DNA of 24,919 nt from a virus, in the IMG/VR virus record IMGVR_UViG_3300027659_000193, positions 1 through 24,919 of that record; one strand, 5' to 3'. Position 1 is the first letter of the stretch. The number at the start of each line of letters is the position of its first letter. The notes beneath the pieces were generated by a model. That model saw only the letters and a program-made list of their open reading frames with translations. It searched no databases and had not been told where the DNA came from. This document shows positions 3,803-19,757 of the stretch, in pieces. A program made the translations under genes and the position numbers.

Positions 3803-4111
3803 ATGGCTGCGAAGAACAACTGGAAAGACATACTACCCAAGGCACCTGAACGGGAACCAAAACCGCTCACTGCCATATCAGCGGCTATCGCTAACAAGGA
3901 CATGGACGGCACGCTCCATGCCCTGCTTAAGCTCTACCTACATGAAGCTCAGTATACTGACACAGGTACTAGAGATATGCGGGAGCTTCTCCGGGACCTG
4001 TCTAGATTGGCCCTTGAAATCAAGAAAGCCACACCAGCTACAGATGATGAGAAGCAGGCCATGCTAAGAGAGCTGATGCAGTACATAGAAGGTAACAGTG
4101 AAGGCTCTTAA
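3803..4111 (+). CDS. Helical protein upstream of large terminase; alternative small terminase candidate
   Basis: A 102-residue protein, mostly helical, with two Leu-rich helices (about residues 36-50 and 57-75) and a charged tail. It ends 14 bases inside the terminase gene, and GAAGG plus the GTG start of terminase lie within its coding sequence, so the two are coupled. The position directly before large terminase is where the small subunit usually lies, but no DNA-binding motif is visible, unlike in the 3331 gene. GAGGA precedes its ATG. Confidence 0.5.
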   Translation: MAAKNNWKDILPKAPEREPKPLTAISAAIANKDMDGTLHALLKLYLHEAQYTDTGTRDMRELLRDLSRLALEIKKATPATDDEKQAMLRELMQYIEGNSEGS

Positions 4112-5609
4112 TCTAACAGACCCATACTGGTTTCTCAGTAGGCTATGGATATCAGACAAGAAGGGTAAGCTCATTCGTCTAGTGTTAAACGATGAGCAGA
4201 AGGCTGTCATAGCTGAGCTAGAGGCTGGGCGCAACCTAGTTATAGCCAAAGCAAGACAGCTTGGTATCTCTACTATAGTAACAGCATACCTGTTCTGGAA
4301 AACCTACATAGCAGTAGACCCAATCTCAGCAGTATCTATCCTACACAAACAGGATAGTGCTAACGAGATCTTCCTCAAATATGAGACCTTCCAGAATACC
4401 TTGCCCAAGGTTCTTCAGAAGAACCTATTGAAGAAGACTACCAGTACCCTGAGGTTCTCTACTGGGTCTTCTATCCTAGCTACTACTGCCGGAGGCCATG
4501 GTGGCCTCCGTTCCTATACACTGAATATAGCCCACATATCTGAGCTATGCTTCTACCAAGATCCTGATGAGCTATTAGCCACTGTTCTTTCTGCTTTGAA
4601 CGGCAACCAGATTATCATTGAATCTACTGCTAAGATGTATGGCGATCCGGTCCATCGTCTTGTTGACAAGATCCAGCGCGGCGAACTACAAGGAGACTGG
4701 AAGCTTCTCTTCTTCCCATGGCACGAGCACAAAGCCTATGCTCTTGACCTAGATGGTATATTCACACCAACTACAGAAGAAGCAGCACTAGCAGTACAAT
4801 ACAGCCTAAGCAATGAACAGCTATACTGGCGGCGTCTTAAGATACAAGAGATGGGTATCTCCAAATTCAAAACAGAATACCCAGCATGTCTAGAAGACAT
4901 CTTCTCTCAGAAGGGAGATGCTTACTATACTGACAATGACCTGGACCTCATAGAGCCATTCCTCCTACCAGCTAACCAAGAGCTTACATACATAGAGCCT
5001 CCTAATCCTCAGAAGAGATATGCTCTCGGTGTGGACGTAGCTTCTGGAGCAGGCAGAGACTATAGCGTAATCGTCGTCCTCGAAAGGACGACTAGCAATC
5101 CAGTATGTATATTCAGGTCTAATGAGATCACACCTATCAACCTCGCGCGGAAGATACAACACCTGTCTACCGAATACAATAATGCCAAGGCTCTTATAGA
5201 ATCAAACAACTGGGGACTACCAGTATTGAATGAACTGAGGAACCTAGGCTTCTCTAACCTATGGAAAGATCCTCAGGGTCAAGACTGGACCACTACCAGT
5301 AAATCCAAACTAGTCTTACACGAAGAGCTTAAAGAAGCTATCCGTAAAGGTATCATCAGTTCTCTTGATAACATCACACTGACAGAACTAAGAGAGCTAG
5401 CCCTCAACAAGAATGGACTAGCACCAGAATCAGTACGTGGATTGTCAGGTCATAGTGATCAGGTGATAGCCTTAGGTCTAGCCTTCCAATGTCTCAAAAC
5501 TGTAGAACGTCCGATGACCGCGGTCGAGAAATTTATGAAACAGCAGCAGACCTCTTCTGTCCGGAAGAGGCTTAACCTACATAGTACAATGCTACCGAGG
5601 TCTTACTAA
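4098..5609 (+). CDS. terL: Terminase large subunit (packaging ATPase and nuclease)
   Basis: A 503-residue motor that translocates DNA into the prohead and cuts it. The ATPase half carries a Walker A-like AKARQLGIST (residues 50-59; the lysine of the usual GKS/T is absent, as in many large terminases), a Walker B-like strand NIAHISEL ending in Glu149 and a coupling motif IIIESTA (172-178). The nuclease half has the three acidic motifs: GVDVASGAGRD (Asp313), ALIESN (Glu368) and GHSDQVIALG (Asp454). It starts with GTG, supported by GAAGG five bases ahead and by the N-terminal NLTDPYWF helix. The last 12 residues (492-503, LNLHSTMLPRSY) recur in diverged form at the end of the HNH gene that follows, suggesting that this C-terminus was replaced when the HNH gene arrived. 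Confidence 0.95.
   Translation: MKALNLTDPYWFLSRLWISDKKGKLIRLVLNDEQKAVIAELEAGRNLVIAKARQLGISTIVTAYLFWKTYIAVDPISAVSILHKQDSANEIFLKYETFQNTLPKVLQKNLLKKTTSTLRFSTGSSILATTAGGHGGLRSYTLNIAHISELCFYQDPDELLATVLSALNGNQIIIESTAKMYGDPVHRLVDKIQRGELQGDWKLLFFPWHEHKAYALDLDGIFTPTTEEAALAVQYSLSNEQLYWRRLKIQEMGISKFKTEYPACLEDIFSQKGDAYYTDNDLDLIEPFLLPANQELTYIEPPNPQKRYALGVDVASGAGRDYSVIVVLERTTSNPVCIFRSNEITPINLARKIQHLSTEYNNAKALIESNNWGLPVLNELRNLGFSNLWKDPQGQDWTTTSKSKLVLHEELKEAIRKGIISSLDNITLTELRELALNKNGLAPESVRGLSGHSDQVIALGLAFQCLKTVERPMTAVEKFMKQQQTSSVRKRLNLHSTMLPRSY
5571..5609 (+). repeat. Terminase 3-prime end, recoded copy of 6133-6171
   Basis: Twelve codons plus stop match the last 12 codons plus stop of the HNH gene at 6133-6171: 9 of 12 residues and 27 of 39 bases agree. 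Six codons differ only at the third position. The copies are 562 bases apart, the inferred length of the inserted unit. Confidence 0.85.
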
Positions 5610-5610
5610 C

Positions 5611-6171
5611 ATGAAGACATGCGCTAAATGTAAAGAAGAGAAATCTCTTGAGATGTTCAGTAAGGACAAGAGCAGGAAGGATGGCTTACAGCGTTGTTGC
5701 AAGGCGTGTATGTCTAATATAACTAAAGCCTGGCAGCAGGCAAATCCCGATAAAGCTTTAGCTCATACTGTGGCTTGGCAGAAAGCTAATCAAGACAAGG
5801 TTACTGCTACTAAAAGAGATTGGTATCAAGCTAATACCGAGAAGGCGAAGGCCGATGTAAAAGCCTGGAAGCAGAACAATCGAGACAAGATGGCAGCACA
5901 AAGCAAGGCTTACCTCCAGCGCCTAAACCTTGTCAACACTAAGATATCCAGACGGACACTAGCTGCTTGGGCTGCTCAGGTTAAAGCTCTTAATCCCCGT
6001 TGTGATTGGTGTCTCTGTGTTGACGATCTTGAAGCTCACCACATTCTACCCAAGGCTATGTACCCAGAACTGGCACTAGATATTTCCAATGGCCAGACCT
6101 TGTGTATAAAGCATCACGATGAAATCCATAGTCTAAATCTACATAGCACAGTTCTTCCTAGAGGGTTCTAA
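5611..6171 (+). CDS. HNH homing endonuclease 1, inserted in the terminase 3-prime end
   Basis: A 186-residue free-standing nuclease expected to cut DNA lacking the insertion and so spread its own gene. An N-terminal zinc finger (CAKC at 4-7 and CxxC near 30) is followed by four helical repeats of about 14 residues (pattern A-W-x-x-x-N-x-D/E-K), then the HNH domain: C-D-W-C, E-A-H-H-I-L-P-K, N-G-Q and C-I-K-H-H-D-E-I-H. Related protein HNH2 ends three residues after its HHDEIHS motif, but this one continues with LNLHSTVLPRGF, a copy of the terminase C-terminus. It starts one base after the terminase stop; its ribosome site GAGGT lies inside the last terminase codons. The end of the gene (AGAGGG) in turn supplies the ribosome site of the portal gene. 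Confidence 0.9.
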   Translation: MKTCAKCKEEKSLEMFSKDKSRKDGLQRCCKACMSNITKAWQQANPDKALAHTVAWQKANQDKVTATKRDWYQANTEKAKADVKAWKQNNRDKMAAQSKAYLQRLNLVNTKISRRTLAAWAAQVKALNPRCDWCLCVDDLEAHHILPKAMYPELALDISNGQTLCIKHHDEIHSLNLHSTVLPRGF

Positions 6172-7779: not shown

Positions 7780-7977
7780 ATGCCTCTCTATACCTACACA
7801 TGCCCACACGGGGATACCACAGATGTTCTTACCTCTTACGAGAAAAGACCAGAGGTAGTTTTTTGTGAGAAATGTGGTCAAGCCGCTAGACAAACTATAG
7901 CTCTTCCTGCTAAAACAGAATATAGGTGGGGCGATTATGCCAACACCTATAACCCACGGAACGGTGGAAAGAAATGA
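7780..7977 (+). CDS. FmdB-like zinc-ribbon protein 1
   Basis: A 65-residue protein with the typical start M-P-L-Y-T-Y-T-C of small zinc-ribbon proteins. Possible metal ligands are Cys8, His10, Cys29 and Cys32 (FCEKCG). The C-terminus is basic. It begins one base after the portal stop, with GGGGGTG as ribosome site. Such proteins are common between portal and scaffold genes in phages; their role in the head is unknown. It appears to be a shorter paralogue of the zinc-ribbon protein beyond the HNH gene: both have Cys8 and a CxxC about 20 residues later. Confidence 0.75.
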   Translation: MPLYTYTCPHGDTTDVLTSYEKRPEVVFCEKCGQAARQTIALPAKTEYRWGDYANTYNPRNGGKK

Positions 7978-8435
7978 AGACAAAACAAGATACATGTCCT
8001 GATTGCTCCAGCCCAAAAGACTATCGGTCGGTACGATGTCGGGCTTGTTCTCGGAGACATTCCAAGCCCTGGAATTCCGAGCAACGGCAGAGACATAGTG
8101 AATGGTGGCACAAGAAAGCCGCAGAAGGCAATCCTCCTGGCTCTAAGCTAGGCACTAAACAATCTCAAGATACTATCCAAAAGAGATTGCTGACTAGAGG
8201 AATGAACTATCTTCCCATAGAGGAGAGAGGTTCGCGTTGGAAATATTTCCTTTGGGCAAAAGCCGTAAAAGAAAGAGATCTTGTCTGCGTCTATTGTGGC
8301 GGAGAAGATCGTCTTCACGCTCATCATATTCTATCTAAAAATAAACATCCGTTGCTATCCTTGAAGGTCGACAATGGTATAACATTATGTCATGGTTGTC
8401 ATTGGGACGAGCATCGTCTTAATGGCTATCTATAA
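7974..8435 (+). CDS. HNH homing endonuclease 4 with NUMOD3-like segment
   Basis: A 153-residue nuclease, unrelated to the other three HNH proteins outside the catalytic core. N-terminal zinc ribbon CPDC (8-11) with CRAC (22-25); a NUMOD3-like DNA-binding segment near residues 53-75 (GSKLGTKQSQDTIQKRL, pattern G-x-x-x-S-x-x-T-I-x-K); then the HNH core CVYCGGEDRLHAHHILSK, DNGITLC and CHWDEH. It starts inside the stop of zinc-ribbon gene 1 (ATGA overlap), so it borrows translation from that gene. Its TAA stop is in the same frame as the next zinc-ribbon gene, only four codons before that gene's presumed ATT start. Confidence 0.85.
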   Translation: MKTKQDTCPDCSSPKDYRSVRCRACSRRHSKPWNSEQRQRHSEWWHKKAAEGNPPGSKLGTKQSQDTIQKRLLTRGMNYLPIEERGSRWKYFLWAKAVKERDLVCVYCGGEDRLHAHHILSKNKHPLLSLKVDNGITLCHGCHWDEHRLNGYL

Positions 8436-8447
8436 GGAAGGTGTATT

Positions 8448-8867
8448 ATTCCAATCTACGAACATGTATGCAACAAGGGAACAGTCACAGAGGACATCTA
8501 TTCTGAAGCACCAGCTTCTATTGACTGTCCCTGCTGTGCTGCACCAGCAACATTAATGGTATCTAACATCGCACGTACTAGGGGCTCCTGGGGAGCCACA
8601 GGTCTTGGTGGCACAGAGGTCAATCCCTACTATGACAGAGGCTTGGGCGCGTCCTATACCTCATGGGCAGAGAGAGATCGGATCATGAAAGCAAAGGGTC
8701 TGAGAGACCACTGTGATGCAGAAGAGGAACGTGCTCTCTCTAAACAGAGAACACATATAGCTAAAGAAGAAGCCTACTGTGCAACGTATGAGAAGCATGT
8801 ACAAGCTGGGGCAGAACCAATCCAGGCAATGCAGCTAGCACAAGACGTTAAAGCCGCCACCAACTAA
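8448..8867 (+). CDS. FmdB-like zinc-ribbon protein 2, apparent ATT start
   Basis: From 8448 the frame reads (M)PIYEHVC..., the expected start of an FmdB-like zinc ribbon with Cys8, Cys27 and Cys30 (DCPCC), then a 100-residue charged helical region: 139 residues in all. The codon at the expected start is ATT, not ATG, with GGAAGG about six bases ahead. The first ATG in frame is at 8556 and has no ribosome site; starting there would remove all zinc ligands. The TAA of the HNH gene (8433-8435) is in the same frame, so readthrough is another possibility. I call it a gene with a rare ATT start or one weakened by the adjacent insertion. The C-terminal helices (RDRIMKAKGLRDHCDAEEE) are unrecognised. 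Confidence 0.55.
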   Translation: MPIYEHVCNKGTVTEDIYSEAPASIDCPCCAAPATLMVSNIARTRGSWGATGLGGTEVNPYYDRGLGASYTSWAERDRIMKAKGLRDHCDAEEERALSKQRTHIAKEEAYCATYEKHVQAGAEPIQAMQLAQDVKAATN

Positions 8868-8879
8868 AGGATAACCAAC

Positions 8880-9383
8880 ATGAAACTATTACCAGACCAA
8901 CTAGGTCAGATAGCCGTAGATGATAAGCAAGCTCGTGATGAGCAGATGATGACTATAGCCCCCAAGGCTATAGGCACCTTCAGTCCAACAGCATTGAACA
9001 AACTAGTAGCTGCTTGGAACAAGCTCTCTAAACTGTTTGGTATCAGCGAAGCTTATGAGACCTTCAGTGAACCACAGAAGGTCTTCCCCGTAGAATTTAC
9101 CAAGCTTATTGCTATGGCTAGCTCTGCTATTGAAGACGCTGTTGCTGCTGAGGTACTAAGCTCCGATCTTCTATTAGACCTTGCTAACACCAAGAAGGAT
9201 CAGGATGTAGTTCTCCTTGCTGCCAAGATTGAACAGGCTGCTAAGAACGCTGCCTTCAAGAGCTTCCTAATGGAAGCGCCACCTGAACCCAGTGAACCAG
9301 AGGAACCTTCTGAGATCGCAGAAGAGGAAGCTCCCATGGACGAGGACGCTTTCCTAAACATGATCAGCACACGTATGAAATGA
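8880..9383 (+). CDS. Helical protein with acidic tail, head-assembly accessory
   Basis: A 167-residue protein, mainly helical for the first 128 residues, then a Pro/Glu-rich acidic tail (PPEPSEPEEPSEIAEEEAP) and a short amphipathic end. Acidic tails are common in proteins that work with scaffold during head assembly. The position between portal and scaffold fits, but no family is recognised. AAGGA precedes the ATG. Its last four bases (ATGA) contain the start of the next HNH gene. Confidence 0.65.
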   Translation: MKLLPDQLGQIAVDDKQARDEQMMTIAPKAIGTFSPTALNKLVAAWNKLSKLFGISEAYETFSEPQKVFPVEFTKLIAMASSAIEDAVAAEVLSSDLLLDLANTKKDQDVVLLAAKIEQAAKNAAFKSFLMEAPPEPSEPEEPSEIAEEEAPMDEDAFLNMISTRMK

Positions 9384-9868
9384 AAACCTGTACCAAATGC
9401 AAAGAGGAGAAACCTCTTGATATGTTTGGAAAAGACAATAGGCACAAAGACGGTTTACAGTCCTCTTGTAAGGAATGTGAAACGAAAAGAACACAATCCT
9501 ACTATGAAGATCATCCTGAGAAGAGACAGCTATCATTGAGAGATTATGCGCAGAGGAATCCTGATAAGGTCAGAGAATCTCAGAGAAGGTGGAAGAAGGA
9601 GAATCCTGATAAGGTTTATGCTAAGAACCAACGATATCTTACTAAGCTCAATCTAGCTAACTGTGAGATATCTCAGCGTACACTAAATGCCTGGGCTGCT
9701 CAGGTGAAAGCTCTTAATCCCCGTTGTGATTGGTGTCTCTGTGTTGATGATCTTGAGGCCCATCATATCAAACCTAAAGCTTTGTACCCAGAACTGGCAT
9801 TGGATCTTACCAATGGACAGACCTTGTGCACGAAGCATCATGACGAAATACATTCAACTAAATTCTAA
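9380..9868 (+). CDS. HNH homing endonuclease 2 (mosaic of HNH1 and HNH3)
   Basis: A 162-residue nuclease of the same family as the 5611 and 19182 proteins: zinc finger CTKC (4-7) with a second Cys pair near 30, three helical repeats of about 14 residues (one fewer than its relatives), and the HNH core CDWCLCVDDLEAHHIKPK, NGQTLC, KHHDEIHS. It starts inside the stop of the upstream gene (ATGA). DNA at 9566-9682 is 116/117 identical to 19425-19541 in HNH3, whereas the C-terminal part from 9695 closely follows HNH1 from 5971. The protein therefore looks like a recombinant. It separates the acidic-tail protein from scaffold. Confidence 0.9.
   Translation: MKTCTKCKEEKPLDMFGKDNRHKDGLQSSCKECETKRTQSYYEDHPEKRQLSLRDYAQRNPDKVRESQRRWKKENPDKVYAKNQRYLTKLNLANCEISQRTLNAWAAQVKALNPRCDWCLCVDDLEAHHIKPKALYPELALDLTNGQTLCTKHHDEIHSTKF
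9566..9682 (+). repeat. 117-bp near-identical block shared with HNH3 (19425-19541)
   Basis: Direct comparison gives one mismatch in 117 bases (T at 9617, A at 19476). The block spans the last two helical repeats and the linker into the HNH domain. Similarity falls off sharply on both sides. Confidence 0.9.
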
Positions 9869-18498: not shown

Positions 18499-19182
18499 AT
18501 GGACCCTGCTACCCTCTCAGCTATATTTGGTGTCGCCCGACAGGGCATAGGTGGTATCGCTTCTAATGCTCCTTATCTGTTTGAGAATCCACACGAACAA
18601 GAGAATGCAAAAGAAGCTGCCAAGCTTAAGCACCTCATTGATAGTGGAGCCTTAGGTCTTACTGCTGATGAACAACAGCGTATCCTATCTCGTCAGCAGG
18701 GTGCTGCCGAGAACCAGCTACAGCGTACTGCTGCTCAGTCTGCTCAGATACAAGCCGCTGCCGTAGGTAGTGGCGAGGCTTTGAAGAAGGCTGTGCTTCT
18801 TGGACAGTCTGGAGCAGGTATCCGTCAGGACATTAGCCAAGGTGTAGAGGATCTCAACCAGAGAGAAGCTCAGCGTCAGCGTGAAGAATATGCTGCACGT
18901 TCTGCTGCTGATCAGGAAGCTAAGGACCGTCGCCTACGTGCATGGCTTGGTATCCTAACTGGTACTGTTGATGCTGCTGCTACCACAGCAGATCAGAACA
19001 AACTACTAACTGGTAGTGCAGCCAAGCCTCAGGCAGTTGCAGCTACAGACATTGCTGCTCAGTACATGAAGGACTATGGGCTTAGCCAAGAAGATGCCGA
19101 GGCCCTCGCCGCAGCATCTAGTGAAGATGCTGACCTAGCCGCTAGTGCTAGCAAACTATTAGGTAACACAGGAGCAGAATAG
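18499..19182 (+). CDS. Small internal virion (ejection) protein
   Basis: A 227-residue, Ala/Gln/Glu-rich helical protein. It begins with a Gly/Ala-rich segment (LSAIFGVARQGIGGIASNAP, residues 6-25) that could insert into membrane, followed by long coiled-coil helices (RQREEYAARSAADQEAKDRR near 130-150). Composition and position after the tail genes match the smallest of the ejection proteins of podoviruses, which leave the capsid with the DNA and build a channel across the cell envelope. GAGGT precedes the ATG. Its stop overlaps the GTG of the next HNH gene by one base (TAGTG). Confidence 0.6.
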   Translation: MDPATLSAIFGVARQGIGGIASNAPYLFENPHEQENAKEAAKLKHLIDSGALGLTADEQQRILSRQQGAAENQLQRTAAQSAQIQAAAVGSGEALKKAVLLGQSGAGIRQDISQGVEDLNQREAQRQREEYAARSAADQEAKDRRLRAWLGILTGTVDAAATTADQNKLLTGSAAKPQAVAATDIAAQYMKDYGLSQEDAEALAAASSEDADLAASASKLLGNTGAE

Positions 19183-19757
19183 TGAAATACTGTACTGGGT
19201 GTGATAACACGAAAGCCTCAGAGATGTTCTATAAAGATAAGAGCAAGAAAGATGGATTGTCTTCATCTTGTATGGACTGTGCTAAGACGCGGGCGCAGGA
19301 TTGGTATCAGTCAAACCCTGAACAGGCTAAAGAGACACGGGCATTATATCGTACAGCTAATCCAGAAAAGATTAAAGAAATAAATAGAGCTTGTGCCAAG
19401 AATTGGCGAGAGGCTAATCCACAGAAGGTCAGAGAATCTCAGAGAAGGTGGAAGAAGGAGAATCCTGATAAGGTTAATGCTAAGAACCAACGATATCTTA
19501 CTAAGCTCAATCTAGCTAACTGTGAGATATCTCAGCGTACATTGAATGCTTGGTCCTCACAAGCCAGGGCGGCCCACCCATACTGTGAGCTATGTCTAAC
19601 TACTGACAACCTTGAAGCTCATCACATATTACCCAAGAGCAGATATCCTCAACATGCTTTGAACCTAACTAATGCTCAGATCTTATGTGCCGATTGCCAC
19701 ACCGATATTCATACTGAGATTCCCAATCTAAAGAAAGAGGAGGTTTCCCTTGCCTAA
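19182..19757 (+). CDS. HNH homing endonuclease 3
   Basis: A 191-residue nuclease of the HNH1/HNH2 family: zinc finger CTGC (4-7) with CxxC near 30, four helical repeats of 14 to about 20 residues (N-P-E/D-K pattern), HNH core CELCLTTDNLEAHHILPKSR, NAQILC and CHTDIH, then a 15-residue tail. It starts with GTG, using the AGGAG at the end of the ejection-protein gene. Its own end carries AGGAGGT, the ribosome site of the next gene, which it overlaps by eight bases. It shares a 117-bp block with HNH2. It separates two ejection-protein genes. Confidence 0.9.
   Translation: MKYCTGCDNTKASEMFYKDKSKKDGLSSSCMDCAKTRAQDWYQSNPEQAKETRALYRTANPEKIKEINRACAKNWREANPQKVRESQRRWKKENPDKVNAKNQRYLTKLNLANCEISQRTLNAWSSQARAAHPYCELCLTTDNLEAHHILPKSRYPQHALNLTNAQILCADCHTDIHTEIPNLKKEEVSLA
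19425..19541 (+). repeat. 117-bp block shared with HNH2 (9566-9682)
   Basis: Partner of the block in HNH2: 116 of 117 bases identical, about 9.86 kb apart in the same orientation. Such a direct repeat is also a possible site of deletion by recombination. Confidence 0.9.

Follow-up and report, generated by a model that had tools for sequence, protein, structure and literature searches.

The window, by which we mean the whole 24,919-nucleotide stretch of viral DNA analysed here, carries a gene for a putative HNH endonuclease (HNH1) between its terminase and portal genes. The features on which the analysis turns are the following.

4098..5609, + strand: terminase large subunit, 503 residues, GTG start; PHROG terminase match at 7.8e-26
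5571..5609, + strand: terminase ending, copy 1, LNLHSTMLPRSY followed by the stop codon
5611..6171, + strand: HNH1 endonuclease ORF, 186 residues; matches to PHROG endonuclease, endonuclease VII and HNH families; paralogues in the window
5611..6132, + strand: HNH-family portion of HNH1, with DNA similarity to HNH3
6133..6171, + strand: terminase ending, copy 2, which is the in-frame C-terminus of HNH1, LNLHSTVLPRGF followed by the stop codon
6174..7778, + strand: portal protein, with PHROG and Pfam portal matches
7974-8435: HNH2, a more distant relative of HNH1
9380..9868, + strand: HNH3, a tail-free paralogue with the C-terminus HHDEIHSTKF; no counterpart at the syntenic site of the related record G001
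19182..19757, + strand: HNH4, a tail-free paralogue; no counterpart at the syntenic site of G001

From N to C terminus, HNH1 is laid out as a zinc ribbon, a helical linker, an HNH domain and a terminase-like tail. Its start lies 1 base past the terminase stop, and 2 bases separate it from the portal gene. That the HNH genes lie in group I introns was rejected, since none was detected when the window was scanned with Rfam and the spacers beside HNH1 are just these 1 and 2 bases.

The terminase ending at the end of HNH1

The sequence-only reading of this DNA had claimed that the terminase tail recurs at the end of HNH1, and the comparison confirms it: 9 of the last 12 residues are identical, as are 27 of 39 bases between 5571-5609 and 6133-6171. 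Codon by codon, the two copies show six synonymous third-base differences and three residue changes, the other three sense codons and the stop being identical. Elsewhere in the window, 39-mers match the terminase end at no more than 24 of 39 bases on the + strand and 21 of 39 on the - strand. When end-anchored 12-residue tails were compared across 4,852 neighbouring ORF pairs (drawn from 168 loci plus the window, and including mechanically called ORFs, some of which may not be genes), the terminase/HNH1 pair was the sole one to reach 9 of 12, the next being one pair with 7 and one with 6. A degenerate DNA pattern for the tail peptide, run against all viral contigs, matched only in L001, a near-identical contig. 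L001 has the same arrangement, with 5 differences in 4,772 bases and none in the tails, which makes an assembly error unlikely. No other convincing copy of a terminase tail was seen in the 3 kb downstream of the terminases of 142 distinct relatives, read in three frames. A downstream match in L222 was dropped, being low-complexity and away from the gene end.

The two gene ends could be alike by coincidence, or for no other reason than that a ribosome-binding sequence for the following gene lies in each. A GAGG-like sequence is indeed present at the ends of both the terminase and HNH1 genes, and AGAGGG lies within copy 2 upstream of the portal ATG, where it had been noted from the sequence alone. 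The GAGG motifs are, however, out of register between the two ends, and the match is one of peptide, with third positions changed, at a level unequalled among the 4,852 pairs. We consider such a translational likeness extremely improbable.

HNH1 and its paralogues

The best profile matches of HNH1 are to PHROG families 2340 (3.6e-11), 1035 (1.8e-10) and 144 (1.6e-9), which place it with the HNH and endonuclease VII proteins; the Pfam HNH profile is reached by HNH2-HNH4 only. Its three relatives in the window are HNH3, which is 61% identical, HNH4 and the more distant HNH2. Residues H143, H144, N160, H169 and H173 are invariant across HNH1, HNH3 and HNH4, and we take these to be the catalytic H-N-H residues of the family. 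One zinc cysteine of HNH4 has been lost in HNH1 and HNH3 (LCIKHH versus LCADCH), which counts against the origin proposed below. Solved structures gave no sequence match, and the HNH1 structure model is too poor for use past the zinc ribbon and the helical linker. In that model the zinc ribbon leads into a chain of five short helices that recur about every 15 residues and are separated by NPDK-like motifs; the repeats are fewer in HNH3. Used as a degenerate pattern, the HNH core was found in L001 only among all viral contigs, and in none of the plasmids.

Over 189 bases the DNA of HNH1 and HNH3 is 84.7% identical; the similarity breaks off at 6129 and is gone beyond that point, and the tail begins at 6133. 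The tail is therefore foreign to HNH1, and the earlier claim that it is alien to the HNH family, whose member HNH3 ends in HHDEIHSTKF, holds good. Judged by these alignments, the HNH1 ORF is a fusion, made up of HNH-family DNA to about 6132 and of terminase-ending DNA thereafter. A terminase-like tail is absent from HNH3, HNH4 and the other HNH homologues, no copies of upstream-gene ends were seen at HNH3 and HNH4, and inspection by eye of the HNH/tail junction for microhomology gave nothing that could be claimed. Among about 45 other HNH homologues in viral contigs, none was found to have a tail copied from its own upstream gene, so that tail capture is no general habit of the family.

The HNH genes are mosaic. 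Besides the 189-base block shared by HNH1 and HNH3 there is one of 145 bases, 93.8% identical, between HNH3 and HNH4, and blocks of this kind are a sign of recombination among the HNH genes of this phage. The 145-base block (9552-9694 and 19409-19553) lies inside genes that have otherwise strongly diverged, which suggests, from the sequences, a recent exchange between nuclease genes of one phage.

Relatives and the terminase-portal junction

The HNH1 site shows the presence/absence polymorphism expected of a free-standing homing gene. In L092 (record G001) and L202, whose terminases are 61% and 60% identical to that of the window, no gene lies between terminase and portal, the gaps being 7 and 11 bases respectively, and in L093 (terminase 53% identical) the terminase directly abuts the portal gene. 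G001, a 27.9-kb relative collinear with the window, is without HNH1-HNH4 at all four sites and has a different endonuclease VII-like gene at another place. Among the relatives as a whole, the distinct terminase-portal junctions number 116, and 88 of them span no more than 120 bases; the longer ones include methyltransferase, GIY-YIG-like and small zinc-ribbon genes, so named from sequence motifs. In L014, L015, L074, L024, L027, L029 and L034 the junction is occupied by a small ORF, some 80-115 residues long, that encodes a zinc ribbon. These ORFs resemble the N-terminal zinc ribbon of HNH1, and each may perhaps be the remnant of a nuclease gene.

An HNH gene in this position might also be a domesticated packaging nuclease of the HK97 gp74 or Skunavirus HrdP type, situated between terminase and portal for the sake of its function. 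Like those genes, HNH1 adjoins the terminase and portal genes, and the HNH genes of Skunavirus, which are conserved between the two, are seen as packaging components (PMC12724721). Unlike gp74 and HrdP, HNH1 is not conserved in relatives and has paralogues in its genome; it is missing from the closest relatives, and three genes related to it stand elsewhere in the same genome, for which reasons a packaging role is very unlikely. Nor is there conservation beside the terminase, 88 of the 116 junctions being direct, and the best PHROG families (endonuclease, endonuclease VII and HNH) are filed under nucleotide metabolism, not packaging.

The sequence-only reading had expected terminases without a neighbouring HNH gene to end in an LNLHST-like tail and to run straight into portal. 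They do lead into portal, with 7 or 11 bases in between, but their endings are not LNLHST-like. The L092/G001 and L202 terminases, which are the closest nuclease-free relatives at 60-61% identity, finish in NNPFAPISRQY and SNPFGSGITRKF; both stop at the homologous residue rather than elsewhere and have an R-x-[YF] ending, and they match neither copy. Among the relatives LNLHST is carried only by the near-identical L001, and the further claim that the HNH1 tail is the old terminase ending is not supported by these endings. The general form of the ending is widely shared: R501 and Y503 of the terminase are invariant in 11 of 11 aligned terminases, and across 124 distinct terminase tails R stands two before the end in 76 and Y is final in 81. 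Relatives of the terminase are up to 61% identical to it, and in bacterial genomes the search for them gave a single distant match only.

Divergence of the copies and a proposed origin

Between copy 1 and copy 2, pS is 0.80 and pN 0.17; synonymous sites are thus saturated while the peptide has been kept. In simulations of free drift after a simple duplication, with 12 base differences, 9 of 12 residues were kept in 0.15-2.6% of runs, the range reflecting how changes are split between the copies. With only 12 codons the estimate of selection is rough and serves as argument rather than proof. As far as these codons go, the synonymous excess favours two terminase endings that diverged in two phages over one copy drifting after a duplication.

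We propose that the HNH unit, on entering, brought along a related terminase's ending, and that the displaced ending became fused to the HNH 3' end, an origin to which we give a probability of roughly 0.62. HNH1 would then be a free-standing endonuclease gene of the homing type that came to lie at the terminase-portal boundary when two related phages recombined, their terminase endings by then differing at synonymous sites, and repair of an HNH-driven break may lie behind the insertion. The terminase body would have been joined to the ending of one phage, with the HNH gene next, and the ending of the other phage (about 39 bases) would have been left in frame at the HNH 3' end, directly before portal. 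As a consequence of the insertion the terminase would keep a complete, functional-looking tail, presumably a working one, and the portal gene would keep its ribosome-binding sequence upstream; the 12-residue HNH extension is probably a meaningless by-product. The AF2 model of the terminase has its final helix at 475-492 and pLDDT below 50 at 493-503, so that the protein is predicted to be structured to about residue 492 with its last 11 residues disordered, and the piece that would have been replaced coincides almost exactly with this disordered tail. What was directly observed is that the terminase ending is duplicated, that HNH sequence gives way sharply to the tail, that relatives have an empty site and that synonymous changes are in excess. 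An insertion had already been suggested from the sequence alone; the empty site, the foreign tail and the synonymous excess speak for it, while its direction and its LNLHST-like endings in relatives were not borne out. That earlier suggestion also held that recoding would destroy the cleavage site; on this view HNH1 might cut the empty site and spare the recoded one.

The arrangement could also have arisen by plain duplication: insertion of the HNH gene just past the terminase stop would have copied a short piece of the terminase 3' end, and the two copies would have drifted apart later. A single phage would suffice for this, and a methyltransferase gene inserted behind the terminase in L051 (3283-4101) ends in CTAAGGAGATACTGAT, identical at 15 of 16 positions to the terminase end, CTGAGGAGATACTGAT. 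Three methyltransferase homologues in other phages have different endings, and the gene past the L051 methyltransferase starts exactly as it does in L042, which is itself without that methyltransferase. The L051 copy is, however, shorter and contains a ribosome-binding sequence, and so may be maintained for translation. In the window, moreover, the divergence is mostly synonymous, and no more than 2.6% of the simulations leave 9 of 12 residues in a drifting HNH copy. Plain duplication is thus rather unlikely.

A different kind of explanation holds that the tail has a function. A mobile nuclease could have been brought to the packaging motor by a captured portal-docking tether, with HNH1 keeping its terminase-like C-terminus for a shared partner, e.g. 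portal, and with both copies of the peptide under selection. The peptide has been retained despite saturated synonymous sites, the common R-x-aromatic ending of terminases is preserved as R-G-F in HNH1, and the C-terminus of lambda TerL bears a tether that binds portal (PMC9026076). However, none of the other HNH homologues examined has such a tail, just one distinct sequence shows it, and divergence before fusion explains the pattern equally well. We therefore regard docking mimicry as quite improbable.

The nearest parallels to an insertion with a substitute ending come from fungal mitochondria. The precedent first named was atp6 of Allomyces; the architecture is indeed known, but that precedent is too narrow, since in Glomus the genes atp6, atp9, cox2 and nad3 also have endonuclease ORFs with a replacement C-terminus, the atp6 ends being 63.5% identical in DNA and 91% in protein (PMC3630166). 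In Endoconidiophora, part of the C-terminus of atp6 and of cob is reported to be duplicated beside endonuclease ORFs (PMC6279837). As in Allomyces and Glomus, an endonuclease ORF stands here at a gene's 3' end with a diverged second C-terminus beyond it and the protein better conserved than the DNA, so that two diverged host-gene endings flank the nuclease part of HNH1. Unlike those cases, which involve LAGLIDADG or GIY-YIG enzymes, this one involves an HNH protein and a phage terminase, the duplicated ending is just 12 residues long, and its second copy is read as the C-terminus of the nuclease itself.

Among phages, free-standing homing endonucleases such as T4 seg and mob and those of ICP1 are placed at the boundaries of essential genes, including terminase, in the available excerpts of two accounts (PMC2988022, PMC10448857). 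HNH1 is like these in being missing from relatives; they co-convert their flanks, and the same excerpts, unlike the present case, describe no host-gene ending borne by a nuclease (PMC2988022, PMC10448857). The proposed insertion also resembles Aeh1 mobE in nrdA and T4 mobA in gene 60, where, in the excerpted text, an HNH gene sits within an essential gene (PMC2988022). Whereas nrdA and gene 60 are split, the substitute ending leaves the host terminase intact. In the literature searched, we found no description of a phage nuclease that carries a substitute host-gene ending.

If the proposed origin is true, the use of a mobile nuclease with a substitute host-gene ending, a strategy of fungal mitochondria, would also occur in phages, and there in an essential packaging gene. 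A free-standing nuclease would thereby have a way to enter an essential gene at its 3' end and leave it unsplit, and a nuclease protein could pick up a host-gene peptide as a by-product. Since a collinear relative without the HNH genes exists, the predicted cut site is directly testable. Within the window, HNH2 is preceded by a short FmdB-like zinc-ribbon gene (7780-7977) and followed by a full-length FmdB-like gene (8448-8867) with an apparent ATT start; relatives have one FmdB-like gene at the site corresponding to 7780-8867, and here too an HNH gene may be flanked on both sides by pieces of a host gene.
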